Of a DNA stretch of 64,000 bases, positions 1 through 55,803 are shown one piece after another; the stretch's first letter is position 1; every line of letters begins with the position of its first letter. The DNA lies in NCBI RefSeq assembly GCF_900187405.1, contig NZ_LT896716.1, forward strand, positions 496,001-560,000. Direction: 5' to 3'. The position numbers were made by a program, and so were the translations under genes. The notes under the pieces are model-generated. The model did not search any database. It had not been told where the DNA came from and was given only the letters and a program-made list of their open reading frames with translations. Source of the stretch: Geobacter sp. DSM 9736. Lineage in GTDB: Bacteria; Desulfobacterota; Desulfuromonadia; Geobacterales; Geobacteraceae.

Positions 1-2
1 GC

Positions 3-1742
3 AACCTCTGGCGGTATGCCTCGCTCCACGATGCTATGGAAATATTTAAAGTCATCACGGTTTCCTCTGTCATGACTGTCTTCGCTGTTATGTACGTCCG
101 GTACTTTGATTCCTTCCCCCGATCGATCTTCATCCTTGACTGGTTTCTCCTTTTTTCCATGGTTTCGTCAAGTCGTCTAGTGTGGCGGATATTCCGCGAG
201 ATGTATTTCCTTCCTTCACAGCGGCCTCACAGCGGGAAGCGCACTCTAATTTTGGGTGCTGGGGAGGCGGGTAGCATGCTGCTCAAGGAGATACGGAAGC
301 GGCGCGATTCCGAGTACAACATAATCGGGTTTGTAGATGACGATAGGGAAAAATGTGGAATGCTCCTTCACCGGGTTCCTGTCCTTGGAGACATTGACCA
401 CCTCCGGGCACTGGTAAGGAAATACAAAATCCAGGAGCTAATTGTTGCTATCCCCTCCGCCCAGGGGAAGATGCTGCGCCGCATTGTGGGATGTTGCGAG
501 AAGGCCAAGGTAGCGGTGAAGACTATTCCAGGTATCAGCGACATCATCAGCGGTAAGGTGGCTATTTCTCAGATAAAAGATGTGGACATCGAGGACCTGC
601 TAGGGCGGGATGCGGTAGTTCTCGATGAGCATAGCATCAGCAGCTACCTAACCGGAAAGAAGATCCTAGTAAGCGGCGCGGCGGGCAGCATCGGCAGCGA
701 GGTCTGCCGGCAGGTCGCCCGTTTCGAACCGACGAAGATCATTCTCGTAGATGCCGCTGAAACCCCGCTTTTTTATATTGAAAAAGAGCTAGCGGAAAAG
801 CATCCTCAACTTAGAATTATTCCGATCGTGGCAGATATTCGTAACGACGTTCGCATCGAGATGATCTTTGACCAGTTCATGCCGGAGGTTGTCTTCCATG
901 CTGCTGCATACAAGCATGTGCCGATGATGGAGTACAATCCTGTTGAGGCGGTATCCAACAATATCCTCGGTACGAGAAAGCTTGCCGACGCAGCTCATCG
1001 CTTTGGCGTCAAAAACTTCGTAATGATTTCGACCGATAAGGCGGTGAACCCTACAAATGTGATGGGCGCGAGCAAGCGGGCAGCGGAAATATATGTTCAG
1101 GCTCTTGCCCGAAAGAGTCTGACAAAATTCACCACTGTCCGGTTCGGCAATGTCCTCGGCAGTAACGGCAGCGTAATTCCTGTATTTAAGGAGCAGATTA
1201 GTAGGGGGGGGCCCGTTACGGTTACAGACCCTCAGATCATGCGCTACTTCATGACAATACCAGAGGCGACGCAGCTCGTGTTACAGGCCGGATGCATTGG
1301 CAACGGCGGCGAGATCTTCGTGCTGGACATGGGGGAGCCGGTGCGGATTATTGACCTTGCTGAGGAGCTTATTCGGTTGTCAGGGTTCATCCCTTATGAG
1401 GATATCGATATCGTCATTACAGGGCTGCGGCCGGGGGAGAAGCTTTTTGAAGAATTGCTGATTGAGGGAGAAGGAATAAAGCCAACGAGCCACGAAAAGA
1501 TAAAGATTGCAGCCGCAGTGCCTTCGAATCTGGATACTGCAAACACGGCCCTTGACGAATTGGCCGAACAGGCAGATGTCTCTGATGTGGGAGGAATTAT
1601 GGAGTGCTTGAAAGCGCTGGTACCCGAATTTACTCCTTCATACAAATTCAGTGGAGACCCACCACTGGGAATGCAGAAGTTGCGTCCCGATCTGTTTGTT
1701 GCAAAAACCTCTCAAAGCAAAATCATCTCTCTCAAAAAATAG
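3..1742 (+). CDS. CapD/WbpM-type nucleoside-diphosphate-sugar epimerase/dehydratase (5' truncated)
   Basis: Membrane-anchored enzyme expected to convert UDP- or other NDP-sugars for surface polysaccharide synthesis. The reading frame is open to the left edge and encodes NLWRYASLHDA before the first internal Met at 36, a stretch typical of this family's membrane domain, so the gene starts outside the window; 579 residues are visible. Two Rossmann regions follow: a CoA-binding-like one around LILGAGEAGSMLL and the catalytic one around GAAGSIGSEVCRQV. The family signature STDKAVNPTNVMGASKR with the Met-x3-Lys catalytic pattern is present. A hydrophobic segment remains at the start. Family call is firm; the sugar substrate is unknown. 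Confidence 0.9.
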   Translation, partial: NLWRYASLHDAMEIFKVITVSSVMTVFAVMYVRYFDSFPRSIFILDWFLLFSMVSSSRLVWRIFREMYFLPSQRPHSGKRTLILGAGEAGSMLLKEIRKRRDSEYNIIGFVDDDREKCGMLLHRVPVLGDIDHLRALVRKYKIQELIVAIPSAQGKMLRRIVGCCEKAKVAVKTIPGISDIISGKVAISQIKDVDIEDLLGRDAVVLDEHSISSYLTGKKILVSGAAGSIGSEVCRQVARFEPTKIILVDAAETPLFYIEKELAEKHPQLRIIPIVADIRNDVRIEMIFDQFMPEVVFHAAAYKHVPMMEYNPVEAVSNNILGTRKLADAAHRFGVKNFVMISTDKAVNPTNVMGASKRAAEIYVQALARKSLTKFTTVRFGNVLGSNGSVIPVFKEQISRGGPVTVTDPQIMRYFMTIPEATQLVLQAGCIGNGGEIFVLDMGEPVRIIDLAEELIRLSGFIPYEDIDIVITGLRPGEKLFEELLIEGEGIKPTSHEKIKIAAAVPSNLDTANTALDELAEQADVSDVGGIMECLKALVPEFTPSYKFSGDPPLGMQKLRPDLFVAKTSQSKIISLKK

Positions 1743-19327: not shown

Positions 19328-21406
19328 ATGAACGATACTTTGGGAAAAGCGGCAAAGGACTTCCTGGCCGAGGCGGAAGAAATAGTTGACCAGCTGAGCC
19401 TCGATCTGGTCGGCGTCGGAGATGCTGCCGAGGAGGGTGACTACAATCCTGACATCGTCAACTCCATTTTTCGTGGTGCACACTCTCTCAAAGGCCTCGC
19501 AGGGATGTTCGGTTTCAACGACATCGCAGAGTTATCTCATAACCTGGAGAATCTGCTCGATTCTCTCCGTCTTGGAAAGGTGCAGCTTAACGGGCAGGTG
19601 ATGACCATCCTGTTCGACTCACTGGATCTTCTCGGCACAATGGTGCAGCATGCAGGCTCGGGAAAGGGCGAGCCCGTGGATCTGGCTTCCGCCATCGTCC
19701 GCATCAACGACTGCATCAGGTCCCCCGAGTCGTCTGGCGACGAGGATCAGCTAACGAGCCTGGGACTTTCCGATGCGGCGTTAAAGTCACTAACGGAGTA
19801 TGAAGAGCATCGCCTTCTGGAAAACATCAGGAAAGGGAAAAGGCTCTATTCAGTTGTTGCTTCCTTCAGTCTCGCTACATTTGACCAGGATCTCGGAGCA
19901 CTTACCGAAACCCTGAAGGATATGGGGGAGGTAATTAGTACCCTCCCCAGCGCCGGGAGTGGACATGAAGGGATCGATTTCGAGATCCTCTTCGGCACTG
20001 ACCGGAGAGATGATGAGATCTCCGCTGTTGTAGGTTCGCAATTCATCACTGTACGGCTTCTTAGGGCAGGGAGTGTGAAGCCTGCCACCGATCTGCGGGG
20101 AGCCACTCCGATAACGCCGCTCCCGCTGCCTGCTCCTCCCTCGGCTTCCGTACTGCAGAATTTCCAGGATGTGCCTGTGGTAAACGATGTCTCGTCCGGA
20201 GATACGTTGTCTGCAAAGAGCATGAGCCGGACGGTGCGAGTCGACATCGGTAAGCTTGACGAACTGATGAACATCGTAGGGGAGCTTGTTCTTTCGCATT
20301 CGAAGATAAGTAGCCTGTCTTTTGCGATGCGAAAGGAAGGTTTTTCCTCCTTTGCCATGGAGCTCGGAAAAGCGGCGAAAGGGCTTGAACGAAAGCTGAC
20401 TGAGCTTCAGAAGGGTGTTATGGAAATCCGAATGATACCCGTCGGGCAGCTTTTCGAAAAGATGTCGCGGATTGTGCGCAAGATTTCCCGTGAACAGGGA
20501 AAGAAGATCGATCTTCGAATGTTCGGTGCCGATACGGAATTGGACAAGCTCATTATCGAGGATATTTCAGATCCGATGATGCACATCGTCAGAAATGCCA
20601 TCGATCATGGAATCGAGCCCGCGGAGGATCGTATCCGCCTTGGTAAAAGCGAGAAGGGTACGATCCGACTCTCTTCCTACCAGAAGGGAAATCATGTCGT
20701 AATAGAGGTGGAAGACGATGGGCGGGGCATCGATCTGGAAAAGGTGAGGTGCAAAGCTTTCGACAGGGGCCTGATCCCGAGTATGAACATTTGCGACAAG
20801 GACGCGTTAGAGCTCATATTCCTTCCGGGGTTCTCCACTAGTGACCAGGTTAGCGAGATATCCGGACGAGGGGTCGGTATGGATGTTGTGAAAAACAATA
20901 TCGCTGCCGTGTCGGGGATGGTCGATATCGAGACGGTTCTCTACAAAGGAAGCAAGGTCATCATAACTCTTCCCATCACTCTTGCTATCATAAAGGCGCT
21001 CATCATTTCTTCTGCTGGACGGACATATGCTCTCCCGATTACATCTGTTCTTGAAACTATCATCATTGAGCCGCGGGAGATTCTGACCATAGAGCGAAAG
21101 GAAGTCATTCAACTCCGGGAAGCAACTCTGCCGCTGCTCAGGCTCGACCGTTTTTTCGAGATAACCAGAGGGAGCGCCGAGGCTTCAGAATCCTTGTATG
21201 TAGTCGTCGTGGGGGCAGCTGAGAAACGGCTGGGGATCGTTGTGGAAGACCTGCTCGGTCAGCAGGATATTGTCATTAAGTCCATGGGGGAGACGTTCAA
21301 GGGATTCCGCGGGATTTCCGGTGCCGCCGACCTTGGTGACCAGCGAACCATTCTTGTTCTCGATGTGGGAGGAATCATCGGTGAGGCTACGAGGGGAAGC
21401 GTTTAA
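19328..21406 (+). CDS. cheA: Chemotaxis histidine kinase CheA
   Basis: 692 residues in CheA order: Hpt domain with phospho-His 52 in GAHSLKG, a variable middle region, dimerisation helices, HATPase domain with N-box HIVRNAIDHGIE, G1 VEDDGRGID and G2 GRGVGMDVV, and a C-terminal CheW-like regulatory domain ending near GDQRTILVLDVG. Only one Hpt is seen. It anchors a cluster with two cheW, cheR and cheB but no chemoreceptor gene, so the receptors must be elsewhere. Confidence 0.96.
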   Translation: MNDTLGKAAKDFLAEAEEIVDQLSLDLVGVGDAAEEGDYNPDIVNSIFRGAHSLKGLAGMFGFNDIAELSHNLENLLDSLRLGKVQLNGQVMTILFDSLDLLGTMVQHAGSGKGEPVDLASAIVRINDCIRSPESSGDEDQLTSLGLSDAALKSLTEYEEHRLLENIRKGKRLYSVVASFSLATFDQDLGALTETLKDMGEVISTLPSAGSGHEGIDFEILFGTDRRDDEISAVVGSQFITVRLLRAGSVKPATDLRGATPITPLPLPAPPSASVLQNFQDVPVVNDVSSGDTLSAKSMSRTVRVDIGKLDELMNIVGELVLSHSKISSLSFAMRKEGFSSFAMELGKAAKGLERKLTELQKGVMEIRMIPVGQLFEKMSRIVRKISREQGKKIDLRMFGADTELDKLIIEDISDPMMHIVRNAIDHGIEPAEDRIRLGKSEKGTIRLSSYQKGNHVVIEVEDDGRGIDLEKVRCKAFDRGLIPSMNICDKDALELIFLPGFSTSDQVSEISGRGVGMDVVKNNIAAVSGMVDIETVLYKGSKVIITLPITLAIIKALIISSAGRTYALPITSVLETIIIEPREILTIERKEVIQLREATLPLLRLDRFFEITRGSAEASESLYVVVVGAAEKRLGIVVEDLLGQQDIVIKSMGETFKGFRGISGAADLGDQRTILVLDVGGIIGEATRGSV

Positions 21407-21430
21407 CAGTGTCCGTTGACAGAGGACTTC

Positions 21431-22231
21431 ATGTATAAAGTGTTTTACGGCCTGAATGAAAAGCCCTTCAGCAAGACCCCTGACCCCCGCTTTCTATATC
21501 TGAGCAGAGGGCATCGGGAAGCCCTCGCCCGTCTGCAGTACGTTATAGAAGAACGGGAGATAGCATTGATGACCGGTGACATAGGGTGCGGGAAAACAAC
21601 GCTTTCCCGGGCACTCATGGACTCCGTAGGAAGCGGGTATCACTTCTGTTTCGTCTACAACCCTAGGCTAACAGCGATCGAGTTTCTACGTGTAGTGGCA
21701 CGAAGTCTTCACATTGCCAATCCTCCGGCTGCCAAAGATGAACTGTTAAAGGAGATTACCGATCTCCTTTTCAGGTACCATGAAGATGGACGTTGTCCGG
21801 TCGTGATAATCGACGAGGCTCAGATGATTCCCGACCGGGAAATCTTCGACGAGATACGGCTCCTGACAAATTTCCAGCTGGATCACAAGAACCTGCTGAG
21901 TATCATCGTAATGGGGCAACCAGAGCTGCGGAGCATACTCGCCGCCCCGGTTTACGAGCCCTTTCGGCAGAGGATCGCACTCAACTACCATCTTAATCCC
22001 CTCTCAGTTGAAGAAACCCAGGATTACCTGGATTTCCGCATAGAAGTAGCCGGGGGAACTCCGGGACTTTTCTTTCCCGATGCGGTACAGCGAATATACG
22101 AGCTTTCGGGGGGGGTGCCGCGCATGATTAACGTCATAGCTACCAATGCGCTCCTCGAAGGCTTCGGCAGGGATGCGGCATACATCGATGGCAGCATCAT
22201 CGACGAGATGGCGGGAGAGTTGTTAGCGTGA
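21431..22231 (+). CDS. ExeA/GspA-like AAA ATPase
   Basis: About 266 residues: MYKVFYGLNEKPFSKTPDPRFLYLS is the typical N-terminus of ExeA-type ATPases (general secretion pathway A/MSHA biogenesis families), with Walker A TGDIGCGKTTLSR and Walker B PVVIIDEAQMI. It lacks the C-terminal peptidoglycan-binding domain of full ExeA. ATG 21431 has AGAGGA upstream. Its place between cheA and cheW is unusual and suggests a link between the sensory system and an envelope-localised machine; that is inference. Confidence 0.85.
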   Translation: MYKVFYGLNEKPFSKTPDPRFLYLSRGHREALARLQYVIEEREIALMTGDIGCGKTTLSRALMDSVGSGYHFCFVYNPRLTAIEFLRVVARSLHIANPPAAKDELLKEITDLLFRYHEDGRCPVVIIDEAQMIPDREIFDEIRLLTNFQLDHKNLLSIIVMGQPELRSILAAPVYEPFRQRIALNYHLNPLSVEETQDYLDFRIEVAGGTPGLFFPDAVQRIYELSGGVPRMINVIATNALLEGFGRDAAYIDGSIIDEMAGELLA

Positions 22232-22253
22232 ATAACTTCATAAAGGATTCGCC

Positions 22254-22943
22254 ATGAATCTCGCGGAGATACGTAAAAAGGCGCAGGAGGAGAAGACGGA
22301 GCGACCCTCGCCGATCAGTAGTGAAAGAACTGATGTTACGCTGGAGGAAAGCGTCAGGGAAGCGGGAAGAGGAGGTCTTCCCGGATCGACTTTGACGGCT
22401 TCACAACGGCCGCCCCAGAGTTTCGACCCGCTTTCCGTTCTTCTTGCGGGAAGAATGCTGGCTGCAGTAGAGGAGGAGCTTCCGGAAGAGCATGCGGAAG
22501 AGGGGGTCGATGATGATTTTCAGGAATTCCTCTGCTTTCGCGTCGCTACCGAGCTTTATGCCATCAACATCATGGAGATCAAGGAGATCATCAAGCCGCG
22601 CGAGGTTACCGAAGTCCCTCGGGTTCCGGCGTTCGTATCGGGTGTCCTGTCACTGAGGGGTATCATAATTCCGGTGATAGACTTGCACAGGCGCCTTGGA
22701 CTGGAGGGGACTTCCGAAGGGCCGAAAGTCAGAGTCGTTGTCGTCAAGAAGGGGGAAGAATTCTGCGGCGTGGTGGTGGATGAGGTAATACAGGTGGTAA
22801 AAATAGCAGTACCCACCATCGAACAGCCACCCGCGGTACTCGACGGGATCGACAGGGATTTCGTCCAGGGTATAGGCAGGCACGAGGGGCGCATGCTTAT
22901 CCTGCTGCAACTTGGAAACATTCTTGACCTTACCCTCTGCTGA
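22254..22943 (+). CDS. cheW: CheW-domain coupling protein with N-terminal extension
   Basis: 229 residues. The first 90 or so are low-complexity and acidic (VEEELPEEHAEEGVDDDFQ); the CheW domain follows, with FRVATELYAINIMEIKEII, VLSLRGIIIPVIDLHRRLG and VVVDEVIQVVKI. It would couple CheA to chemoreceptors. Second CheW homologue is two genes downstream. ATG has no strong Shine-Dalgarno but is the only sensible start. Confidence 0.92.
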   Translation: MNLAEIRKKAQEEKTERPSPISSERTDVTLEESVREAGRGGLPGSTLTASQRPPQSFDPLSVLLAGRMLAAVEEELPEEHAEEGVDDDFQEFLCFRVATELYAINIMEIKEIIKPREVTEVPRVPAFVSGVLSLRGIIIPVIDLHRRLGLEGTSEGPKVRVVVVKKGEEFCGVVVDEVIQVVKIAVPTIEQPPAVLDGIDRDFVQGIGRHEGRMLILLQLGNILDLTLC

Positions 22944-22953
22944 GTGAAAGGTA

Positions 22954-23355
22954 ATGATCATGAAGAGACGCAAGATCCTGATTGTGGAGGATGAGGAAAG
23001 CCTCTTGAGGCTTGAGAGCATTCTGCTCACCTCGAAAGGATTTGAAGTGATCGGCGCAATGGATGGGCCTTCGGCACTGAAGCGGGTCGTTTCGGATCGA
23101 CCTGATTTGGTCCTGCTCGACGTGATGCTTCCTGAAATGAACGGGTTTGAGGTCTGCCGGCAAATAAGAGCCAATCCAATAGTCAGTCAGACTCCAGTTG
23201 TGATGCTGACTGCGAAGAAGAACGGCCAGGATTTCGAGCAGGGGAAGGAATGCGGAGCGAATGCCTACATTACCAAGCCGTTCAAGTCGGCAAAGGTCAT
23301 AGAGATAATAGAACAGATACTATCCGAAAGCTGCAGCAGCGGGCCTGGTGAGTGA
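22954..23355 (+). CDS. Response regulator receiver protein
   Basis: 133 residues, one receiver domain: VEDEESLL, phosphoacceptor in LVLLDVMLPEMNGFEV, conserved Thr in VVMLTAKK and Lys in AYITKPFKS. No output domain. A second ATG at 22960 is possible. The second small receiver of the cluster, it may act as a phosphate sink or an alternative output of CheA. Confidence 0.92.
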   Translation: MIMKRRKILIVEDEESLLRLESILLTSKGFEVIGAMDGPSALKRVVSDRPDLVLLDVMLPEMNGFEVCRQIRANPIVSQTPVVMLTAKKNGQDFEQGKECGANAYITKPFKSAKVIEIIEQILSESCSSGPGE

Positions 23356-23356
23356 T

Positions 23357-23845
23357 ATGAGCGTAGAAATCGAGGAAATCCAGATTGCCTGTTTCAAGCT
23401 GGGGGAAGACCTTTTCGGGATCGACATCATGCGGATCAGGGAAATCATCCGTCCGCAGCGACTGTCGAGCCTGCCAAAGGCTCCCTCCTTTGTCGAAGGC
23501 GTCATCAACCTGAGGGGAACGATCATCCCTGTAATCGATCTGCACAAGCGCTTCGATATGCCCGGTCTGCAGGAAAGCCCTCACATCAGGCTGTTGATCG
23601 TCTCACTGGGACGTCAGCTCATAGGGCTCGTCGTCGATGATGTGACGGAAGTCATCGCAGTACCCGTAAAGGATATCAAGCCTCCTCCCCAGGTTGTGGG
23701 GGGCATCGGCGCCGAGTATCTAATTGGCGTTTGCCTTGCCCATGACAACCTTATAATGCTCCTCAACATCGATCAGCTGCTGACTGCAAAAGAAGCGGGC
23801 GAGTTGACGGGTATACAGGGTGAACGCCCTGGCGCGAGCCAGTGA
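23357..23845 (+). CDS. cheW: CheW-like coupling protein
   Basis: 162 residues that are almost entirely a CheW domain: CFKLGEDLFGIDIMRIREIIRPQ, GVINLRGTIIPVIDLHKRF, GLVVDDVTEVIAV. ATG 23357 is preceded by GGTGAG; a GTG at 23348 overlapping the upstream stop is the alternative. Two different CheW proteins in one cluster imply distinct receptor sets or array architectures. Confidence 0.92.
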   Translation: MSVEIEEIQIACFKLGEDLFGIDIMRIREIIRPQRLSSLPKAPSFVEGVINLRGTIIPVIDLHKRFDMPGLQESPHIRLLIVSLGRQLIGLVVDDVTEVIAVPVKDIKPPPQVVGGIGAEYLIGVCLAHDNLIMLLNIDQLLTAKEAGELTGIQGERPGASQ

Positions 23846-23857
23846 TTCGGAGCAGAT

Positions 23858-25855
23858 GTGGAGCAGCTACAGGCTATAATCGACAGTCAATACTCTCCAG
23901 ATGAAGAGACGCGCTGCCAAGCGGTAATCTGCCTGCTTCGGTACCCATTGCAGCAGGTTAAGGCACGTCTTTTCTACGCGATGGGTGACCCTAGCTGGCG
24001 TGTCAGAAAACAGGCGGTGGAGGCTGTATGCGGCTCCCGGTTCGACGAAAAGCTTGCAGAAGGAATCGTAGAGCTTTTGAGAGACCAGGAGAATGCGGGA
24101 TTACGCAATTCCGCGGTCGAGGCGCTGGTGAGAATCGGAGGAGGAGCGGTTCCGCTACTGTCGCGATTTGTACGAGATCCGGATCATGACGTAAGGAAGC
24201 TCGTTGTAGATATTCTTGGCGGCATAGGCTCACCCGATACTTTTCCTATTTTGATCGACGCCCTCAAGGATGAGGACGACAACGTCCGTGCGGCTGCAGC
24301 GGAAAGCCTCGGGAAAACGGGTGCGGAAGCTGCAGTCCCACATCTCCTGCAGTGTCTTTGCACCGGAGATACTGTTCTTCGTTTTACCGTGCTAGATGCT
24401 CTCATCAAAATCGGCAAGCCTTTGCCCATTAACGACTTGCTTGCGCTGGCAACGGATCCCTTTCTCAAGAAGGTAATTTCCCAATGTATGGGGGCTGCAG
24501 GAGATCCTCAAGGAGTCCCGTTCCTGCTGCAGGGGCTCCGCGAAACGCGGGCGGTCAGGGAAGCGGCAGCGGCTGCGCTTCTCGATATCAGGCGACGGCT
24601 GTCGACAGCGGAGGCGGAGCGGGTCATCGATGCTCCGCTGCATCAACTGCGGGGATCTTCGGTAGTTGATGAGGTTCTGCTTTCGCTGGATTTGAGCGAT
24701 GAAGCGGTTAAGGAACGGCTGATCGAGTTCCTGGGTATCATCGGCGATCATCGTGCCGCTCCCCGGCTTCTGAGGGAAGCTATAGACCCAGCCCTGGCAG
24801 GACCTTGTCTTGATGCTTTATCGGCACTTGGAGCCCCGGCGGCAGAGTTCCTCGTCAATGCTTTTGCCGATGCCACTCCAGAGCAGCGACGTTTTATCGC
24901 ACACGCCTGTGGAGAGCTTCGTTTGCCCAACTCTGACGAGTTATTGTTACTCGGTATGCAGGACGAGGATCCGGTGCTAAGGCACCTTTCAGTCACTGCG
25001 GCTTGGAAGACCTGCGGAGCCCGTGCCATACATGATATTGCTGCCCTGACGGAAGATTCGGTGGAGATTGTCCGGGAATCGGCTCTGCAGGCTATGGTGT
25101 GTCTTGCTCCCTCTGCTCTAGAAACGTTGAGGTTCTATGCAGAAGCCTATGCTGCTTCGGAGGTGCCGGAGAAACGAAGGGATGCTGCCAGGCTTTGTGC
25201 GGTTCTGAAGGATTTGGATAAACTTTCGATCCTGGTAAAGGATGAAAATGTAGAGGTCCGTAAGTCCGCCGTGGCTGCTCTGGCCGAGATGGGTTCCGAT
25301 TGCATCGATCTTCTTCTCATGGCTCTTGTGGACGAGGATCCGGACGTGCGGGTGGCTGCGGTAAAGGTCCTTCCTGCGACAGGACGCAAAGAGGTTCTAG
25401 ATCCGCTGCTTCTCCTGTTGGAGGACCCGGACGCCTGGGTCAGGAGCGAGACCCTCATAGCCATTGGAAAGCTTGGGGACGAGACGGCATTCGAGAGCAT
25501 CGCTGAGCTGATAACCATGACTGAAGCGCCGGTAGCCATCTCCGCTTTGCAGGCTTTAGCTGAAATCGACAGCCGCCGCGCCTGCGAGAAAGCACTGATA
25601 ATGCTCGGTCATCGGGATGAGGAGGTTGTAAAGGCTGCAATGGCTATCCTCGAGTCTGGTGACGATGGGTGGGTGGATTCCTATCGGGACATCCTCCTGC
25701 AGCACGCCCACTGGGATGTGCGGTGCAGATTCGCTACCCTCCTGGCTCGACTTCGCGGAGCTGATGCGCTGCCCTGGCTGGAATCCGTACTGGAACATGA
25801 ATCGGACGAGCAGGTCAGGCGGCATTTGTCCGAAGTAGTGGGGCGCCTGAAATGA
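23858..25855 (+). CDS. HEAT-repeat protein of the chemosensory cluster
   Basis: 665 residues made almost wholly of HEAT-type repeats, for example DPDHDVRKLVVDILGGIGSPDTF, DEDDNVRAAAAESLGKTG, DEDPDVRVAAVKVLPATG and DPDAWVRSETLIAIGKLGDE. No signal peptide or catalytic motif. GTG start at 23858. Overlaps cheR by four bases. HEAT proteins act as binding scaffolds; partners here are unknown, but position between cheW and cheR suggests it modulates the methylation or array machinery. Confidence 0.9.
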   Translation: MEQLQAIIDSQYSPDEETRCQAVICLLRYPLQQVKARLFYAMGDPSWRVRKQAVEAVCGSRFDEKLAEGIVELLRDQENAGLRNSAVEALVRIGGGAVPLLSRFVRDPDHDVRKLVVDILGGIGSPDTFPILIDALKDEDDNVRAAAAESLGKTGAEAAVPHLLQCLCTGDTVLRFTVLDALIKIGKPLPINDLLALATDPFLKKVISQCMGAAGDPQGVPFLLQGLRETRAVREAAAAALLDIRRRLSTAEAERVIDAPLHQLRGSSVVDEVLLSLDLSDEAVKERLIEFLGIIGDHRAAPRLLREAIDPALAGPCLDALSALGAPAAEFLVNAFADATPEQRRFIAHACGELRLPNSDELLLLGMQDEDPVLRHLSVTAAWKTCGARAIHDIAALTEDSVEIVRESALQAMVCLAPSALETLRFYAEAYAASEVPEKRRDAARLCAVLKDLDKLSILVKDENVEVRKSAVAALAEMGSDCIDLLLMALVDEDPDVRVAAVKVLPATGRKEVLDPLLLLLEDPDAWVRSETLIAIGKLGDETAFESIAELITMTEAPVAISALQALAEIDSRRACEKALIMLGHRDEEVVKAAMAILESGDDGWVDSYRDILLQHAHWDVRCRFATLLARLRGADALPWLESVLEHESDEQVRRHLSEVVGRLK

Positions 25856-26730
25856 ATTTTTGCAGTGAACCCGAAGTCCCCATGACTGATGAAGAGTTTC
25901 GCCTTATCCGCGATGTAATACATGACCACAGCGGGCTTTTCTTCGATTTCGATTTCAAGTATCTGCTTGAGAAACGGCTCAGCAAGCGTTTGATCTCCCT
26001 CCAGCTGAACAACTTCACCGAATACTACCGTTTCCTCAAGTATGGCAGGACGAGAGAACAGGAACTGTCCGACACAATGGACATCCTGACCACCAATGAG
26101 ACTTACTTTTTCCGTGAAGCGTTCCAGCTCAAGGCTTTCACCGAGGAAATCTTGCCCGATGTAAGGTCCCGGAAGGAGAAAAAGGGGGATCGGTCGCTAA
26201 GAATATGGAGTGCGGGGTGTTCTACGGGAGAAGAGCCCTATACGATAGCCATTCTTCTCCTTGAGATGGGCTGCTTCGATAACTGGCGGATCGAGGTAAT
26301 CGGGACCGACATAAGCAACCGCGTGCTGCAGCATGCAAGAAAAGGTATATACGGGCGATATTCCTTCCGAACCACGGAGGGCCGCTATATCGACCGGTAT
26401 TTCACGAAGGGTGAAGACAGCAATTTCGAGGTTTGCGACAAGGTGAAAGGACTTGTTACTATCAGCCATCTCAACCTCGTCGATCATAGCCGGCTGGCGC
26501 TGCTCGGTACCATGGATGTCGTATTCTGTCGTAACGTGATCATCTACTTCGACATAGAATCGAAGAAAAAGGTCATCGATTCCTTCTATAAGGCGCTTTC
26601 TCCTAACGGTTACCTCCTTCTCGGGCATTCAGAGTCACTTATGAACATAACTACTTCTTTTGCTCTGAAACACCTGCAGAATGATCTTGTCTACCAGAAA
26701 CCCGAGACCCGCGGCGGAGTATGCCGATGA
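25852..26730 (+). CDS. cheR: Chemotaxis protein methyltransferase CheR
   Basis: 292 residues: N-terminal CheR helical domain ([21 protein letters not shown] ... [11 protein letters not shown]) and SAM-binding domain with [30 protein letters not shown] and [13 protein letters not shown]. Methylates receptor glutamates. Start is ATG 25852 overlapping the HEAT gene; the internal Met 11 is an alternative. Overlaps cheB by ten bases. Confidence 0.95.
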
Positions 26731-27797
26731 GATCTATCAGGGTGGTAGTGGTAGACGATTCCTCATACAGCCGGCGGACCATCGGGAAGATGCTGGAGGA
26801 TATGCCCAATGTGGAGGTGGTCGGATACGCAGCAGACGGAGAAGAGGGACTCAGGCGAATCATAGATCTGAAGCCCGATCTGGTGACCCTCGATCTCATC
26901 ATGCCAAGAATGGACGGATTCACCCTGCTGCGTATCATCATGAACACGCATCCTGTCCCGGTGATCGTCATCAGCTCACGCAACGAGGACAGCCGTGTCT
27001 TTCAGGCGCTTGAGCTTGGGGCACTGGATTTTGTCGCCAAACCAACCCCCACGATTTCAGAAGAACTCCTGTCGATCCGGGAGGACCTGCAGAACAAGGT
27101 CAGAAGCATTATAAGTCTCAACCTGGCCAGAATTTTCACCGCTGACCACCGGGCACCTGTCCCCAGCCGAGCTGACATTTTGGCGCCACGCCACCATTTT
27201 TCCACCGAAATTCAGGTGGTTGCCATAGGTGCTTCTACCGGCGGACCCAGGGCACTTCAGACCATTTTTGCGGACCTCCCCGCTTCGCCTCCCTTTGCTA
27301 TCGTTGTCTCCCAGCATATGCCACCGGGATTCACAAGGGCATTCGCGGACCGCCTAGACCGGGGAAGCAGCTTTACCGTAAAGGAAGCGGAAGATGGTGA
27401 TCCCGTGCGTCCTGGTAGTGCGCTCATAGCGCCTGGTGGATGCAATCTTCTCTTCGAGAAGAGGGGCGGCGAGGTTGTCGTCTCCTTGAAGGCTCCTCGT
27501 CCGGAACATCGGTATTATCCTTCAGTCGATGCCATGTTTACTTCCCTTTCCGCTCTGTTCGGTCCCCGCATGCTTGCCGTGGTTCTGACGGGAATGGGTA
27601 ACGACGGTAGTGCGGGAGTAAGGGCGGTAAAATCTGCCGGAGGAGTGGTGCTGGCAGAGTCCGAGGAAAGTGCAGTAGTCTTCGGCATGCCCAGGGAGGC
27701 TGCCGCCACCGGCTTGGTGGACCGCATAGTGACTCTTGGGCAAATGGGGGATGAGATTCTCAGAATGGCATCCCGGACTGAGGATGGATCTACTTGA
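26721..27797 (+). CDS. cheB: Chemotaxis protein-glutamate methylesterase CheB
   Basis: 358 residues: receiver domain ([12 protein letters not shown], phosphoacceptor in [21 protein letters not shown]) and methylesterase domain with the catalytic triad contexts [10 protein letters not shown] (Ser), SQHMPPGFT (His) and [10 protein letters not shown] (Asp). Demethylates or deamidates receptors, opposing CheR. Last gene of the cluster. ATG codons at 26721 and 26727 are both possible starts. Confidence 0.96.
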
Positions 27798-28138
27798 AGG
27801 TGCTGGCGGAATCCCTTCAGCTCTGAGCGTTGAACCACCTCGACAGTCTGAGAGCTTGCAGCAGCCGACAAAGCGCTTTCTGGGAGAGCGACAGATATGG
27901 TAGGATGCCACGTCTGATCGTAAAGATTCATCGAACATGCATCAGCTATATCGGGTCGAGCCATCCAATTATCATGAAGCCGATCAAGTCTGACCGCCCT
28001 TCTCGACCTAGCGAAGGTTCTGCTGCATATTTAGTTAACGGTCACAAGAATCTCTATCGGTAGTTTTCCATCCATGGGACATGCAACTCATGTCCATCCT
28101 GCTTCTGATTCCACACATGAAACAATGAAGGAGAAGAC
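27798..28138. other. 341-base non-coding interval before the cytochrome gene
   Basis: No convincing gene: the short frames here have no family features. The only structure I see is a perfect hairpin close to the cytochrome start (GGACATG 28077-28083, loop CAACT, CATGTCC 28089-28095) without a T tract. I looked for the conserved GEMM (cyclic dinucleotide) riboswitch core, frequent before cytochrome genes in this group, and did not find it. The region probably holds the cytochrome promoter and leader. Confidence 0.6.
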
Positions 28139-30292
28139 GTGAAACGCCTCCTGCTTTCCCTTGCGCTGCTCGGGTTTCCCGTGCTTATCTTTGCCAAGGA
28201 CTTCAAGCTCGTAACCTACTACACGGAAAATGCCGGACGGGCAGTGTTCGAGCACGACGTCCATCTGAAGGCTCTGACCAACAACTGCACGGTGTGCCAC
28301 AACAAGGCTTTCAACGTCGACCACAAGAAGAACCCTGTAGCCACAATGGCGGATATGGAACAGGGCAAGTCGTGTGGGATGTGTCACAACAAGACCCGTG
28401 CCTTCGGGCTTGCCGAATGTACCCGTTGCCATCCGGTAAAGGAGGTGCCCATTGTCATTCCGGATTTCGGCACCCTTACCTTCAGTCACAACGTGCACAC
28501 AAAGCTATATCTTTGTCAGGACTGTCACAACAAGATATTCAAGGCTGGTCCCGGCAATCCTCACGTCACCATGGCAGAGATGGAGAAAGGAAAGTCGTGT
28601 GGCGCCTGCCATGACGACAAGGCGGCTTTCACCGTAAAGGGAAGCTGCACACGCTGTCACACGGTGCGGGATCTGTCACTTCCGGCGGCGTCTTTTTTCG
28701 GTCACGACTACCACCTCAAGAAGAACTATCAATGCGGCGATTGTCACAGCCAGCTCTTCATCGCCGGTCCCAACAGCAAGCGGTACAGCATGCTGGACAT
28801 GGAGCGGGGGCAGTCGTGCGGAGGGTGTCATAACGGAACAGGTGCATTTTCTGTTAAGGGGGACTGTGGCCGGTGCCATAGGGGAGTTGGGGATGTCAGG
28901 TTCAAGGCTCACCAGGCCCTGTTCCCTCATGGGTACCATCTGAACATATACAGGTGCAGCGACTGTCACAGCGGCATCATAGTCGGGGGAGCCAGCGCGA
29001 AGCGGTATACCATGCAGGAGATGGAAAAACCGCAGTACCGGTCCTGTGGTGCATGTCATCAGGGTGATTTCGCTTTTTCTGTCTCCGGAAGCTGCGACAG
29101 GTGCCATAAGGGAACAAGGGAAATTAACTACCCGATCCAGGATGCAGGGAATGTCCTCTTCAGCCATACCTTCCATGTTGAGCGCTACCAGTGCGCCGAT
29201 TGCCACTACAAGGTCTTCGCCACCGGTTCAAGACGCAAGGGTTATACAATGGCGGAGATGGTGAAAGGGGCATCCTGCGGAGCATGCCACGATGGGAAAC
29301 AGGCCTTCACAGCCGCTGCCAACTGCGGAAGATGTCATCCGGTAAAGGACATAGAGTTTACGCTTGATGCCCTCTTCGGGCACGACCGGCACCTTCAGAT
29401 GTATTCTTGCACCGATTGCCACAATAAGCTCTTTGTGGCAGGGCCGAAATACCAGACGAACCGGTATACCATGGTCGATATGGAGAAGGGAAAGTCGTGC
29501 GGTGGATGTCACGAGGGTAAGAGCGCCTTTTCAGTCGCCGGGGACTGCGGGAAGTGCCACCGAACCGCCCCCGAACTGACCCTGAAAGTTCAGGATGCCG
29601 GAAATACTCCGTTCAGCCATAAGGTTCATATTTCCATGTACACCTGCGGTGACTGCCACAACGGCATCTTCACAACTGGTGTTGCCGCGAAGAGGTACAA
29701 CATGGCCGATATGGAAAAAGGAAAATCTTGTGGCGCCTGTCACGACGGGAAGGCCGCTTTCACGGCTGCCGCCAACTGTGCCAGGTGCCATCCGGTAAAG
29801 ACCCTGAAGCTTGCCGGTGCAACATTCAGCCATGACTTCCATATCGGGCTCTACCGGTGTAACGAATGCCACAGCAAACTCTTCAACCCCACTCCGCTCA
29901 ACCTGCGGCGTTCTATGAAGGAGATGGAGGGGGGCAAGTCGTGCGGCGCATGTCATGACGGAAAGACAGCCTTCTCCGTCACGGGAAACTGTACAAAATG
30001 TCATAAGTTGCAAATGATCAAGTTTGACTTCCCGGACAAGCCGCAGACCAAAAGCGTCAAGTTCAGCCACAAGGTACATATCGGCAGAGGCTACGAATGC
30101 AGCAATTGCCATTACAAGCTCTATCCTTCCGAAGGGGTAAAGAAACCGGTAACGATGGGGGAAATGTCACAGGGAAAATCGTGCGGGGCTTGCCACGGGC
30201 AGGGAATGATTTTTAATGTCAGCGACAACGCATATTGCGAGAAGTGCCACGTGGGGGAGACGGAGCCGGCTCCGGAAGAGGGTGGGCAGTAA
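28139..30292 (+). CDS. 27-heme c-type cytochrome of nine triheme c7-like units
   Basis: 717 residues with a signal peptide (KRLLLSLALLGFPVLIFAK) and 27 CXXCH motifs arranged as nine repeats of about 75 residues. Each repeat opens with FxHxxH, then YxCxxCH, a YxMxxM-x-x-G-x-SCGxCH segment and a third CxxCH. This is the layout of polymeric c7 cytochromes; in the Geobacter 12-heme relative one heme per unit is His/Met ligated, which the conserved Met would allow here. GTG start with AAGGAG upstream. Exported, likely periplasmic electron conduit. It sits directly before leuS, as I recall for a 27-heme cytochrome in G. sulfurreducens. Confidence 0.93.
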   Translation: MKRLLLSLALLGFPVLIFAKDFKLVTYYTENAGRAVFEHDVHLKALTNNCTVCHNKAFNVDHKKNPVATMADMEQGKSCGMCHNKTRAFGLAECTRCHPVKEVPIVIPDFGTLTFSHNVHTKLYLCQDCHNKIFKAGPGNPHVTMAEMEKGKSCGACHDDKAAFTVKGSCTRCHTVRDLSLPAASFFGHDYHLKKNYQCGDCHSQLFIAGPNSKRYSMLDMERGQSCGGCHNGTGAFSVKGDCGRCHRGVGDVRFKAHQALFPHGYHLNIYRCSDCHSGIIVGGASAKRYTMQEMEKPQYRSCGACHQGDFAFSVSGSCDRCHKGTREINYPIQDAGNVLFSHTFHVERYQCADCHYKVFATGSRRKGYTMAEMVKGASCGACHDGKQAFTAAANCGRCHPVKDIEFTLDALFGHDRHLQMYSCTDCHNKLFVAGPKYQTNRYTMVDMEKGKSCGGCHEGKSAFSVAGDCGKCHRTAPELTLKVQDAGNTPFSHKVHISMYTCGDCHNGIFTTGVAAKRYNMADMEKGKSCGACHDGKAAFTAAANCARCHPVKTLKLAGATFSHDFHIGLYRCNECHSKLFNPTPLNLRRSMKEMEGGKSCGACHDGKTAFSVTGNCTKCHKLQMIKFDFPDKPQTKSVKFSHKVHIGRGYECSNCHYKLYPSEGVKKPVTMGEMSQGKSCGACHGQGMIFNVSDNAYCEKCHVGETEPAPEEGGQ

Positions 30293-30438
30293 TCGGTGGT
30301 TGAGATGATTGCATGTAAACGGCACATGTGCTACAAAAACAGGCTTGCCGCACTGTGCGGGAGCCTGCGGCAGTGGTGGTTGCACTCCCCGCTAATACTA
30401 CGGCCCGTCCTTAAAGGACATGGGTGGAGGTAGCTATT

Positions 30439-32913
30439 TTGGAAGAGCGATATGTTCCGAAAGAAGTAGAGGCGAAATGGCAGGAATACTGGGAATCGAA
30501 CCGCAGCTTCAAGGTTACCGAGGATCCGGGGAAGCAGAAATATTACCTGCTGGAGATGTTCCCGTACCCCTCGGGGCGCATACACATGGGGCACGTGCGC
30601 AATTACTCGATCGGTGATGTGGTCGCTCGCTACAAGCGTATGCAGGGACTGAACGTCCTGCACCCCATGGGGTGGGACGCGTTCGGAATGCCCGCAGAAA
30701 ATGCCGCGATCCAGAATAAGAGCCATCCAGCGAAATGGACTTATGAGAATATCTCCTACATGCGTAACCAGCTGAAGAGGATGGGTTTTTCATACGACTG
30801 GGACAGAGAGCTGGCCACGTGTGACCTTTCCTACTACCGGTGGGAACAGCTCGTTTTCCTCCAGATGTACCGGAAGGGTATCGCATACAAGAAGAGTTCA
30901 TACGTCAACTGGTGCCCGAAATGCGAGACGGTTCTCGCCAACGAGCAGGTGGAAGACGGATGCTGTTGGCGGTGTGATAATGAAGTCAAACAGAAGGAGC
31001 TGGAACAATGGTTTTTCCGCATCACCGACTACGCTGAGGAGCTACTGGACTGGACGAACCGTATGCCGGGCTGGCCGGAGCGGGTCCTCACGATGCAGCG
31101 GAACTGGATCGGAAAGAGCTACGGGTGTGAGATCGATTTTCCCCTCGAAAATGGAAACGGCTCCATCAAAGTCTTCACCACACGCCAGGACACCCTTTTT
31201 GGCGCCACCTTCATGTCACTCGCCCCCGAACACCCGCAGGCTCTTGCGCTGACGACGGCAGACCGCCTTCCCGAGGTGCAGGCTTTCATCGAAAAGGTGC
31301 AAAAAACTGAGAAAGCGAAGCGGACCGCTGACGACCTGGAGAAGGAGGGAGTATTCACCGGCTCTTACTGCCTCAATCCGGTAACGGGACGAAAAATGCC
31401 TGTCTACCTCGCCAACTTTGTTCTTACCGACTACGGCACCGGTGCGGTGATGGCGGTGCCGACCCATGACCAGCGGGACTTTGAGTTTGCGCGTAAATAC
31501 GATCTGCCGCTTCAGGTGGTAATCCAGCCTGAAGGTGAAGTTCTCGACCCTACGACCATGACCGAGGCGTTTGTTGCTGAAGGGATCATGACAAACTCCG
31601 GCCAGTTCGATGGTCTCCCCAGCAACCAGGCAAAGCAACTCATAGCGGATTTTCTGGAGAAGCAGGGGATTGGTAAGAAAACCGTCAATTTCAGGCTTCG
31701 CGACTGGGGCATCTCCCGTCAACGTTACTGGGGAAATCCTATTCCGATCATCTATTGCGATACGTGCGGAGTCGTGCCGGTTCCCGAGAAAGACCTTCCG
31801 GTGGTGCTCCCGATGGATGTTGCTTTCACCGGCGAGGGGGGAAATCCGCTGGCGAAGGTAGAGGAATTCTTCAATGTTTCATGCCCCACCTGCGGCGGTC
31901 AGGCCCGCCGGGAGACGGATACGATGGACACGTTCGTTGAATCGTCCTGGTATTTTCTCCGCTACTGCTCACCGGATGTCGAGACGAGTCCTCTTGATCG
32001 GCAGCGGGCGGAATACTGGATGTCCGTCGATCAGTACATAGGTGGTATCGAGCACGCTGTTCTTCACCTTCTCTATGCCCGCTTTTTTACAAAAGTCATG
32101 CGGGATCTCGGATACGTTGCTATTGACGAGCCTTTCGTAAACCTTCTCACTCAGGGAATGGTGATCAAGGATGGCGCCAAAATGAGCAAATCCAAAGGGA
32201 ACGTCGTTGATCCCAATGCACTCATTGAGCGGTACGGCGCCGATACGGCACGTCTCTTTTCCCTCTTTGCCGCCCCTCCCGAGAAGGACCTCGACTGGAG
32301 CGACCAGGGAGTGGACGGTAGTTACCGTTTTCTCAACCGCGTATGGAAGTTCGTGAGAGAGTGCCTTCCTTTAGTAGAGGGGGTTGAAGCGTTTGCCGGC
32401 GGCCCTATCACTGAAGAAGGTAAAACATTGAGACGCGTCGTCCATAAGACGATTCGTAAAGTAACCGACGATGTTGGTGAACGTTTCCACTTCAACACCG
32501 CAATTGCCGCTATCATGGAGCTGGTCAACTCCCTCTACGGCTTTGAACAGAAAAATCTGCGTGAAAACGCGCCGGTTCTCAGGGAGGCACTGGAGAGCGT
32601 AGTACTTATGCTTGCTCCTTTCGTTCCGCATTTTTCCGAGGAACTATGGGAAAAGCTGGGGCATGCCGGAGGGATCGACCGGCGCGGATGGCCCGGGTTC
32701 GACCCGGCAGCTGCGGTAGAGGAGGAGCTCCTGGTAGTAGTACAGGTTAATGGAAAGCTGCGCGGCAGGGTCATAGTCTCTGCATCAGCTACCGAGGATG
32801 ATGTGCGCAAGGCGGCCTTGGCCGACGACAAGGTCTCTTCTTTCGTTGCAGGAAAAGAGTTGAAGAAGGTCATATATGTTCCTGGCAAGCTCCTCAACAT
32901 CGTTGCCGCATGA
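30439..32913 (+). CDS. leuS: Leucyl-tRNA synthetase
   Basis: About 824 residues. HIGH motif region [16 protein letters not shown], zinc module CPKCE...CCWRCD, editing domain ([35 protein letters not shown]), and [12 protein letters not shown]. The frame also opens with GTG at 30424, but the TTG at 30439 gives [11 protein letters not shown], the usual N-terminus, and has GGAGG seven bases upstream, so I take the TTG. Overlaps lptE by four bases. Confidence 0.97.
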
Positions 32914-46960: not shown

Positions 46961-47176
46961 ATGCAGCTGACTGTAAACGGCAAACCCGCAATCATCGAAG
47001 GAAAGGACTCTCTGGGCATCCAGGCGCTCCTGGAGGAACTCAAGGTGAAGGATGCGCTCTACGTGACCGTGGAGCTTAACGGCGAGATCGTCGACCGCGC
47101 CGACTTCGACGGGACCATCGTGAAAGATGGCGACACCCTGGAATTTCTTTATTTCATGGGCGGGGGAAGAGGGTAG
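46961..47176 (+). CDS. ThiS/HcyS-like sulfur carrier protein with extended C-terminus
   Basis: 71 residues with the ThiS beta-grasp pattern (MQLTVNGKPAIIEG, VTVELNGEIVDRADFDGTIVKDGDTLEFLYFMGG). ThiS and MoaD end in Gly-Gly, which is adenylated then thiocarboxylated. Here the chain continues to GGGRG, so two or three residues must be removed before activation; the JAMM protease two genes on is the likely processor. Thirteen bases after metY, with AAAGGA upstream. Role in thiamine synthesis is less likely given the metY context. Confidence 0.88.
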   Translation: MQLTVNGKPAIIEGKDSLGIQALLEELKVKDALYVTVELNGEIVDRADFDGTIVKDGDTLEFLYFMGGGRG

Positions 47177-47185
47177 AGGCCTAGC

Positions 47186-47218
47186 TATAGGTCCCATACG
47201 ACTAGGACCTATTGGACC
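47186..47218 (+). repeat. Palindromic repeat, copy 1 (TATAGGTCC ... GGACCTAT)
   Basis: TATAGGTCCCATACGACTAG followed by GACCTATTGGACC; imperfect palindrome. Its reverse complement matches the element at 53949-53978 over about 28 bases apart from a two-base gap. It lies between the sulfur carrier and the ThiF-like gene. Confidence 0.8.
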
Positions 47219-47256
47219 ATAACTACCTGGAATCCAGTGTACCAGAAAGGTTTGTC

Positions 47257-48066
47257 ATGCTTACAGAAGACCAGATCCAGCGTTATTCCCGCCACATCAT
47301 CCTCAAGGAGGTCGGTGGTAAGGGTCAGATGAAGCTCCTCAACGGAAAGGTGCTCATCATCGGGGCCGGCGGTCTCGGGGCTCCCATCGCCCTCTATCTG
47401 GCCGCGGCCGGGGTCGGCACCATCGGGATCGCCGATGCCGACACCGTCGACGTGACCAACCTCCAGCGCCAGGTGATCCATTTCACAGACGACGTGGGGA
47501 AGCCGAAGGTACAATCGGCTGCTGAGAAGATGCGGGCGATTAACCCCGACGTGAACGTGCGGACCTACGAGGAGTGGATATCCGCCGCCAACATCGCGCA
47601 GATCATCGCCGACTACGACTTCGTCATCGACGGCACCGACAACTTCGCCGCGAAATTTCTCATCAACGACGCGTGCATCCTCGGGAACAAGCCGTATTCC
47701 CATGGCGGGATCCTCCAGTTCGACGGCCAGACCATCACCATCGTGCCGGGTGAGTCGGCGTGCTACCGCTGCATCTTCCCGACCCCGCCTCCGAAGGACG
47801 CGATCCCCACATGTTCCCAGGCCGGGGTTATCGGGGTTCTTCCGGCGGTGATCGGCTCGATCCAGGCCACCGAGGCGGTGAAGTATCTCCTCGGCAAAGG
47901 CGAGCTCCTCACGGGGCGGCTCCTCACCTACAACGCCCTCAAGATGAAGTTCCGCGACGTCACCATCCGCCGAAGCACCCGCTGCCCGGTCTGCGGGGAG
48001 AACCCCACCGTCACCGAGCTGAAGGATGAGCTCGATGCGATGAACGTCTGCGATCTGGAGAAATAG
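47257..48066 (+). CDS. ThiF/MoeB-like sulfur carrier adenylyltransferase
   Basis: 269 residues. E1-like nucleotide-binding GAGGLGAPIALYLAAAGVGTIGIADAD, the N/R-rich NLQRQVIHF, the acidic DGTDNFAAKFLIND, zinc ligands CYRC and CPVC, and a cysteine in TCSQAGVIG. It would adenylate the carrier's terminal glycine. ATG 47257 has AGAAAGG upstream; the frame extends to 47212 through the repeat but that extension is unlikely. Two bases from the JAMM protease gene. Confidence 0.92.
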   Translation: MLTEDQIQRYSRHIILKEVGGKGQMKLLNGKVLIIGAGGLGAPIALYLAAAGVGTIGIADADTVDVTNLQRQVIHFTDDVGKPKVQSAAEKMRAINPDVNVRTYEEWISAANIAQIIADYDFVIDGTDNFAAKFLINDACILGNKPYSHGGILQFDGQTITIVPGESACYRCIFPTPPPKDAIPTCSQAGVIGVLPAVIGSIQATEAVKYLLGKGELLTGRLLTYNALKMKFRDVTIRRSTRCPVCGENPTVTELKDELDAMNVCDLEK

Positions 48067-48067
48067 C

Positions 48068-48463
48068 ATGCTCACCATCCCGAAGATGATCTATGATGCC
48101 CTCGTCGAGCACGCGCGCAGAGACTTCCCGCTGGAAGCCTGCGGCATCCTCGGGGGGAGTGACGGTGTCGTCACCGAACACTACGCGATGACCAACACCG
48201 ACAAGAGCAACGAGCACTTCATGATGGACCCGAAGGAGCAGTTCGCGGTGGTGAAGGACCTGAGGGGGAAGGGGAAGGGCATGGTGGCGATCTACCACTC
48301 CCACCCGGAGACCCCGGCGCGCCCCTCCGAAGAGGACATCCGGCTCGCGCTTACCCCGGATGTCTCTTACGTGATCGTTTCGCTGGCGGGCCCGGAGCCT
48401 GTTGTGAGGTCGTTCAAGATCACCGAGGGGATCAGTACCGAAGAGGAAGTTTTAATTCAGTAA
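48068..48463 (+). CDS. JAMM/M67 family metallopeptidase (Mec/HcyD-like)
   Basis: 131 residues with the zinc JAMM motif IYHSHPETPARPSEEDI (HxHx7Sx2D) and the upstream Glu in LEACGILGGSDG. Prokaryotic members such as Mec trim residues from the end of sulfur carriers or release the cysteine adduct. Together with the carrier ending in GGGRG, the probable job is to expose the Gly-Gly end. Confidence 0.92.
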   Translation: MLTIPKMIYDALVEHARRDFPLEACGILGGSDGVVTEHYAMTNTDKSNEHFMMDPKEQFAVVKDLRGKGKGMVAIYHSHPETPARPSEEDIRLALTPDVSYVIVSLAGPEPVVRSFKITEGISTEEEVLIQ

Positions 48464-48478
48464 AGACTTGCCACGGAG

Positions 48479-48542
48479 CCACAGAGATACGGAGGGACTT
48501 GGCACTAAAGAGATTGTTCTCTGAGCCTCTGTGTCTCTGTGG
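48479..48542. repeat. Inverted repeat with CCACAGAGA-type arms
   Basis: Arms CCACAGAGATACGGAGG (48479-48495) and CCTCTGTGTCTCTGTGG (48526-48542), 15 of 17 positions complementary, with a 30-base spacer. It lies between the JAMM protease and the sulfite reductase genes and can form a long hairpin, possibly a transcript end or mobile palindrome; no T tract follows. Confidence 0.8.
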
Positions 48543-48574
48543 CGGATTTCAAGGAAGATAGAAAGGATCAAGCA

Positions 48575-49522: not shown

Positions 49523-49527
49523 CAGAT

Positions 49528-49755
49528 ATGAACACAATCGATCTGAGGGGCGTCGCATGCCCCACGAACTTCGTAAAGGCAAAGCTTGCTCTCGAAATGG
49601 TCGAGACGGGGGAAACGGTCCAGTTTCTCATCGACGACGGCGAGCCGGTTAAAAACGTCCCCCGCAGCCTGAAGGCCGAGGGGCACAAGCTCCTCGGGCT
49701 CAAGCAGGCCGAGGAGGGGCACTACGTCCTCGAACTGGAGAAGGGGGAGGAGTAG
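49528..49755 (+). CDS. TusA family sulfurtransferase-like protein
   Basis: 75 residues: DLRGVACPTNFVKAKLALEM carries the TusA CPxxxxxxK motif with the sulfur-accepting Cys, and the tail HYVLELEKGEE is charged. TusA proteins carry persulfide sulfur between enzymes. Five bases after the sulfite reductase gene, so it may take reduced sulfur from it or deliver to the carrier system; that is inference. Confidence 0.9.
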   Translation: MNTIDLRGVACPTNFVKAKLALEMVETGETVQFLIDDGEPVKNVPRSLKAEGHKLLGLKQAEEGHYVLELEKGEE

Positions 49756-49796
49756 TAACTCCCTCGTACCGCCTCCAACGAACCGCGTCCACTGAC

Positions 49797-52051: not shown

Positions 52052-52078
52052 CCCTGTTGGTTTAGGAAGGATTCGAAG

Positions 52079-52768: not shown

Positions 52769-52810
52769 GTGCGACGTCATATTCGCGCCCTTCCGCCGCC
52801 GGTTCCTCCT

Positions 52811-52844
52811 CAGGCTCCTCGACGTAGCGCTGCTACGCCTGCGG
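52811..52844. repeat. REP-like palindrome, copy 1 (CGTAGC-GCT-GCTACG)
   Basis: Core CGTAGC (52823-52828), loop GCT, GCTACG (52832-52837), flanked by CTCCTCGA and CCTGCGG. The same block with a changed loop occurs at 63100. Lies in the 266-base gap between cysH and cysD, which otherwise holds no gene. Confidence 0.8.
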
Positions 52845-53034
52845 GCCATCGGTCGTCGCCGACGACGGAATCATCGCGAATCTGACGCCGCTGCCCGTTA
52901 TTCGCTTTCTGCGGGGGGCGACGATCTGAGGCAAAATCCGCAGCCCTGGCAATGTCGTTGTAAAGGTCGAGTCCGAAGATTTTCTTTTACCCTTCACTCT
53001 TCGAATTTCACCTTTCGACCGAATGGAGAAAAGT

Positions 53035-53940: not shown

Positions 53941-53948
53941 TAGGTCTT

Positions 53949-53978: not shown

Positions 53979-53992
53979 ACAAACGAGGCTAT

Positions 53993-55663: not shown

Positions 55664-55697
55664 CGCTTCAGAAAAACTCGGAACCCGTGTTCTGGTG

Positions 55698-55771: not shown

Positions 55772-55803
55772 CATGGTCCACAATCTTGAGCGTTCAACCT
55801 GAC

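Follow-up and report, generated by a model that had tools for sequence, protein, structure and literature searches.

A nine-unit, 27-heme nanowire-type cytochrome with two junction length classes, encoded beside a chemosensory cluster in Geobacterales

Introduction

One long multiheme protein with c3-like parts is HmcA, a 16-heme Desulfovibrio cytochrome. In Geobacter, chains of the triheme c7 unit bear on how electrons are moved across the periplasm. The closest described system is the dodecaheme GSU1996 (PDB 3OV0, 3OUE, 3OUQ and 1RWJ). According to PMC10138318, each of its triheme domains holds one His-Met heme, the axial Met being shown by NMR to be Met209 in domain C and Met287 in domain D, and the hemes are placed edge-to-edge at 3-5 Å; the same paper reports a suggested capacitor role for such nanowire proteins. 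According to PMC12094021, ferrihydrite reduction is impaired when this four-unit protein is deleted, whereas Fe(III) citrate still supports unimpaired growth. The triheme cytochromes PpcA-E consist of a single unit in which all three hemes are bis-His (PMC10138318).

A 27-heme protein of this kind is already in print, and the idea is not new: PMC10138318 describes GSU2210 of G. sulfurreducens as a monomeric, periplasmic, storage-like nanowire cytochrome with 27 hemes. One published listing gives its location as unknown, and the introduction of PMC10138318 mentions homologs in other species for the 12-heme proteins only. Furthermore, the electrode-sensing (Esn) chemosensory cluster of the same species includes EsnC (CheA) and EsnB (CheW), and PMC5585712 reports that deleting either of them harms electrode growth while Fe(III) oxide reduction is unaffected.

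Results

The window analysed here is a 64-kb stretch of DNA from Geobacter sp. DSM 9736. It carries on the + strand, at 28139-30292, an ORF of 717 amino acids whose coordinates, frame and strand were given exactly by an earlier, sequence-only reading. The gene has a GTG start with AAGGAG upstream, and a probable Sec signal peptide occupies residues 1-19 (28139-28195, + strand; MKRLLL...IFA, followed by KD), with the cleavage site read by eye. The translation contains 27 CxxCH motifs, clustered by threes into nine groups, which account for all of its cysteines (54/54) and confirm the nine triheme units and 27 hemes proposed by that reading. Among the 21 histidines outside CxxCH, 18 form nine HxxH pairs. 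The mature part amounts to ~26 residues per heme and has a pI of 8.7. We found no sigma-70-like promoter in 27700-30600 and, in a search for riboswitch control, no Rfam match within the 64-kb window.

The motifs said to recur in each unit were largely there. FxHxxH is present in 9/9 units, and so are SCGxCH and a preceding Met, with the correction that each unit has two Mets in a Met-x-x-Met segment (n=9, one per unit). YxCxxCH occurs in 8/9 units, unit 1 having NxCxxCH instead; across the orthologs, units 2-9 nearly always have Y or F at the first position of this motif, and unit 1 mostly has N, K or S there. The "exact 9 x 3 periodicity" holds for the count but not for the spacing, which is uneven: unit starts lie 71-79 residues apart, with two conserved junction length classes.

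Comparison with domain models placed the protein in a known family. The NCBIfam model TIGR04257 (nanowire_3heme, a c7-type triheme domain) matched it in nine stretches with 715.9 bits and a whole-protein E-value of 3.7e-221, each of the nine separate matches scoring 76-102 bits, above the curated cut-off of 40 bits; nine separate matches to one model at such an E-value put the domain pattern far beyond chance. Pfam Cytochrome_C7 (PF14522) likewise matched nine stretches, with 529 bits against a gathering cut-off of 24.8. The PDB relatives found by sequence were 3OV0 (E 6.8e-79), 3OUE, 3OUQ and 1RWJ, and residues 288-552 align with the GSU1996 structure sequence at E 2.2e-71. The same genome also encodes 12-heme (L116:3174-4226), 9-heme (L115:3043-3888) and 3-heme (L117:1818-2177) relatives with the same triheme unit. 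It holds a second open frame with 27 CxxCH motifs as well (L114:3872-12025; contig C1, about 1615871-1624024), which encodes 2718 aa of quite different build and adjoins 14-heme, 12-heme and 3-heme open frames.

Residues were compared across 34 nine-unit sequences; because these ORFs had been selected for having exactly 27 hemes in nine units, the set cannot prove constancy of number. Left out before counts were L005 and L028 (truncated, the former by its own end and the latter by a contig end), L027 and L031 (both with a broken frame) and the duplicates L001, L006 and L007. An HxxH pair is present in 306/306 units, and the first Met of M-x-x-M is likewise kept in 306/306 units, 8-12 residues before the heme III Cys. 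A set of 41 twelve-heme ORFs has this Met in 164/164 units, and 13 other ORFs, one of which is the cut nine-unit gene L028, have it in 50/50 units. The second Met is not strictly kept (304/306 units; invariant at seven of the nine unit positions). Counted along the 3OV0 chain, for which the entry numbering runs 1..318, Met209 and Met287 of GSU1996 both correspond to the first Met. All 34 sequences thus show the GSU1996-type build, a series of triheme units in every one of which HxxH is accompanied by an axial-type Met for heme IV.

By homology, a set of 18 bis-His and nine His/Met hemes is well supported. Hemes I and III of each unit would be bis-His, the FxHxxH pair supplying their distal ligands, and the first Met of M-x-x-M would make heme IV His/Met. 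On this assignment the ligand count closes, as 27 proximal His, 18 distal His and 9 Met make 54, or 2 x 27. His/Met ligation is already established for the GSU1996-type family, and the sequence-only reading, which had proposed one such heme per unit, is right by homology. Its further suggestion that these hemes have a higher potential is plausible in general and conjectural for the window protein; a limited literature search found no heme-resolved redox potentials for GSU1996. To our knowledge, the His/Met heme of a GSU1996 domain is not the most positive one. A single extra non-ligand His is conserved, His142 in unit 2 (32/34 sequences); it precedes Met145 by three residues and might replace it as a ligand in that unit.

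We then mapped the units by motif positions and measured the length of each junction from the heme IV His to the first His of the next HxxH, that is, the next ligand His. All of the following lie on the + strand, and the Met named for each unit is its predicted heme IV ligand. Unit 1, which forms a position-specific clade, spans residues 37-98 (28247-28432; Met70) and is followed by the long junction 1 of 19 residues (28433-28480). Unit 2 (residues 115-174; 28481-28660; Met145), which carries the conserved non-ligand His142, is joined by the short junction 2 of 15 residues (28661-28696) to unit 3 (residues 187-247; 28697-28879; Met218), and the short to intermediate junction 3 of 17 residues (28880-28921) leads to unit 4 (residues 262-323; 28922-29107; Met292). 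The long junction 4 (20 residues; 29108-29158) precedes unit 5 (residues 341-400; 29159-29338; Met371), and the short junction 5 (15 residues; 29339-29374) precedes unit 6 (residues 413-474; 29375-29560; Met445). Junction 6 is long again (20 residues; 29561-29611) and opens on unit 7 (residues 492-551; 29612-29791; Met522), whereas junction 7 (29792-29824) is short, with 14 residues in the window sequence and 16 in most others. Unit 8 (residues 563-622; 29825-30004; Met593) is separated from unit 9 (residues 642-704; 30062-30250; Met673) by the long junction 8 (30005-30061; 21-23 residues over the ortholog set).

Over the 34 sequences, the eight junctions measure 19, 15, 17-18, 20-21, 15, 20, 14-16 and 21-23 residues. 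The order long-short-short-long-short-long-short-long was observed in 34/34 nine-unit sequences, with four of the eight junctions short (14-18), and the long and short classes do not overlap, junction 3 (17-18) being close to the long class. In contrast, all 123 of 123 junctions in the 41 twelve-heme ORFs are long (19-24), and the same range holds for 33/33 junctions of 12 ORFs that have three, five or six units, from which L028 was left out; relatives of three to six units thus have 156/156 long junctions. Long-only junctions, a feature seen here and not a published criterion, are therefore not shared by the nine-unit proteins, which with four of eight junctions short in every sequence form a distinct subtype. 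Furthermore, since the 27-heme proteins hold a junction type unseen in the relatives examined here, the crescent of GSU1996 cannot simply be extended to them. We rejected a two-unit super-repeat behind the alternating junctions, as the closest pairs, U5-U7 (58%) and U3-U6 (57%), fit no single alternation. Contigs of Geobacterales-like character (L034, L035, L036 and L030) carry five-unit (15-heme) relatives and one six-unit (18-heme) relative, with long junctions only.

Structure prediction without heme gave models of low confidence, too weak to reveal the geometry, both for the full length (pLDDT 62.7, pTM 0.32) and for units 5-7 (pLDDT 65.1, pTM 0.38), as is expected for heme proteins modelled in this way. 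With the low-confidence full-length model, Foldseek ranked 3OV0, 3OUE, 3OUQ and 1RWJ first (E 1.6e-22 to 2.5e-4), and the same four entries gave VIA Z-scores of 12.4-9.7. These low-confidence models give weak but consistent signs: two-domain GSU1996 fragments align best to long-junction unit pairs (units 1-2 and units 6-7), and the strands flanking long junctions have 4-6 residues, whereas those beside short junctions have 3 in most cases and 4 at the most.

A full-length match was found in 39/141 Geobacterales genomes, and some match in 131/141 because shorter relatives share the domain. The full-length gene, present in only 39/141 genomes, is therefore dispensable. Constancy of unit number rests on the 30 of 39 full-length genes that were examined in sequence, every one of which (30/30) has exactly 27 hemes in nine units. 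The nearest unit in another genome was the same-numbered unit in 305/306 cases; therefore, the divergence of the nine units predates the split of these lineages. The gene is under purifying selection, with dN/dS of 0.03-0.09 in 17 of the 25 close pairs listed, those for which dS could be estimated. In a phylum sample of 395 genomes, nine of them in the order, no full-length relative was found among the 386 genomes outside the order, with at most two candidates scored in each; the best match among these candidates had an E-value of 2.2e-49 over 187 residues.

The gene occupies a fixed site. Directly 3' of it on the same strand, at a distance of 29-234 nt, lies leuS in 39/39 genomes; in the window, leuS is at 30424-32913 (+) with a likely TTG start at 30439. 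Upstream, Pfam matches revealed a chemosensory cluster at 19328-27797 (+), composed of cheA, an AAA ATPase gene, cheW, a receiver gene, cheW, a HEAT-repeat protein gene, cheR and cheB. This cluster is a conserved neighbour as well: cheB is upstream in 36/36 genomes that have it on the same contig, at 68-1797 nt, and in 15 of the 36 the distance is just 68-187 nt. In the window, cheB and the cytochrome gene are separated by only 341 nt (27798-28138). The larger gap of L009 (L009:4636-5910) holds a GAF-like protein, read from sequence, and a receiver protein, both absent from the window interval; the best match to this GAF-like protein elsewhere in the window's genome is weak (E 9.4e-8).

In another 87 genomes, none of which has an intact full-length gene, cheB and leuS still share a contig and a strand, with a cheB-leuS gap of 24-286 nt in one family, one exception aside. 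Broken cytochrome copies occur in 2 of these 87 (G049 and G139), and among the intact genes seen at the site none has a different number of units. The gene is therefore present or absent at a single site. By order, the cheA-ATPase-cheW arrangement established from Pfam matches corresponds to GSU2222-2221-2220 as given in PMC5585712, so that the cluster appears to match the Esn cluster of G. sulfurreducens. GSU2210 is mentioned neither in the main text of PMC5585712 nor in the chemotaxis comparison PMC2577667, in which the word "cytochrome" has zero occurrences. Elsewhere in the window, GC content rises from ~53-56% to ~60-62% at roughly 47 kb; the high-GC part (47000-64000) holds sulfur-assimilation, transporter and carbon monoxide dehydrogenase-like genes by appearance and is possibly an acquired island.

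Discussion

Our data point, with a probability of roughly 0.82, to a secreted periplasmic multiheme cytochrome of the nanowire type, made of nine fused c7 domains with 27 hemes, that is the counterpart of GSU2210 and would act as both conduit and electron store. By analogy with GSU1996, a role as a periplasmic conduit and electron store is the most likely one. Electrons would hop along closely packed hemes, and a single polypeptide would therefore be a conduit and a 27-electron store at once, placed between inner-membrane quinol oxidoreductases or PpcA-type carriers and outer-membrane conduits. The "molecular wire" of the sequence-only reading finds its support only in the analogy with the GSU1996 heme chain, the full-length model being of low confidence (pTM 0.32).

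The fixed number of units invites a stronger interpretation, in which nine units are kept as 27 hemes to match the distance from inner to outer membrane and no diffusing carriers are needed. A review estimate of ~27 hemes to span a periplasm of ~200 Å, cited from PMC7096707, makes such a membrane-to-membrane wire conceivable, and the nine units in 30/30 genes examined and the single chromosomal site of 39/39 full-length genes, where other unit numbers are unseen among intact genes, agree with it. However, divergence of the units before the order radiated (305/306) would alone hinder gain or loss of units, and the nine-unit constancy may just reflect this divergence. Four-unit relatives are also widespread with a constant number (41 ORFs), half of the junctions differ from those of GSU1996, so that its length cannot be extrapolated, and no membrane anchor or partner was identified. 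We consider such a periplasm-spanning ruler unlikely. Slightly less probable still is that the cytochrome works together with the adjacent Esn-like pathway or is one of its outputs, for instance in redox sensing or in expression for electrode growth. The upstream position of cheB in all 36 testable genomes (68-187 nt in 15), the shared cheA-ATPase-cheW order and the need for EsnC and EsnB in electrode growth, as stated in PMC5585712, speak for this partnership. Against it, leuS is just as constant a neighbour, and the location may therefore be merely a fixed chromosomal site; the 87 genomes that retain cheB and leuS have no intact cytochrome gene, two of them with a broken copy, the Esn Tn-seq paper does not name GSU2210 in its main text, and no promoter-like site was found in 27700-30600.

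Joining these elements, one may picture the 27-heme proteins as a distinct wire architecture rather than a longer GSU1996. Full and trimmed beta-hairpin junctions, succeeding each other as L-S-S-L-S-L-S-L, would make the domain orientations alternate, and a chain of exactly nine units would in this way span the periplasm as a conductor. It would be kept beside, and serve, an Esn-like electrode-sensing pathway, and unit 2 with its His142 would give it a special site for redox chemistry or docking. We regard this composite as improbable. A very improbable alternative is that all hemes are bis-His and that the Met is structural. The conserved His142 of unit 2 (32/34) would suit it, but the other eight units have no conserved spare His, and their heme IV would therefore miss a sixth ligand; moreover, in GSU1996 the homologous Met has been proven to be a heme ligand. 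The preferred reading remains a conduit and store with His/Met heme IV predicted in every unit. The fixed two-length junction pattern and the constant site beside a sensory cluster look new, and together with the conserved His142 they are the parts that deserve attention. With a fixed unit number, two junction classes and a chemosensory-adjacent site, the loosely defined "molecular wire" yields questions that can be tested, on periplasm span, on whether the junctions set the shape and on Esn control.

Among known systems, GSU1996 shares the triheme c7 unit with its His/Met heme IV, but it has four units versus nine here, and the 12-heme ORFs examined lack short junctions. PpcA-E have the same fold class (VIA Z 4.6-5.1 for the wild-type PpcA-E rows); their all-bis-His ligation does not extend to the present protein as judged by its residues, with an invariant Met and no conserved spare His outside unit 2. 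HmcA gave a Foldseek E-value of 0.025 with a probability of 0.09, and a family-level match to it was not found. GSU2210 has the same number of hemes, 27, as the nine units described here, and its tag number lies near GSU2220-2222, matching the neighbourhood in the window; heme count and gene order, rather than sequence, support its being the counterpart. Whereas the introduction of PMC10138318 speaks of homologs in other species for the 12-heme proteins alone, full-length relatives occur in 39/141 genomes of the order, and this analysis met no chains of the triheme unit longer than the GSU2210-type proteins.
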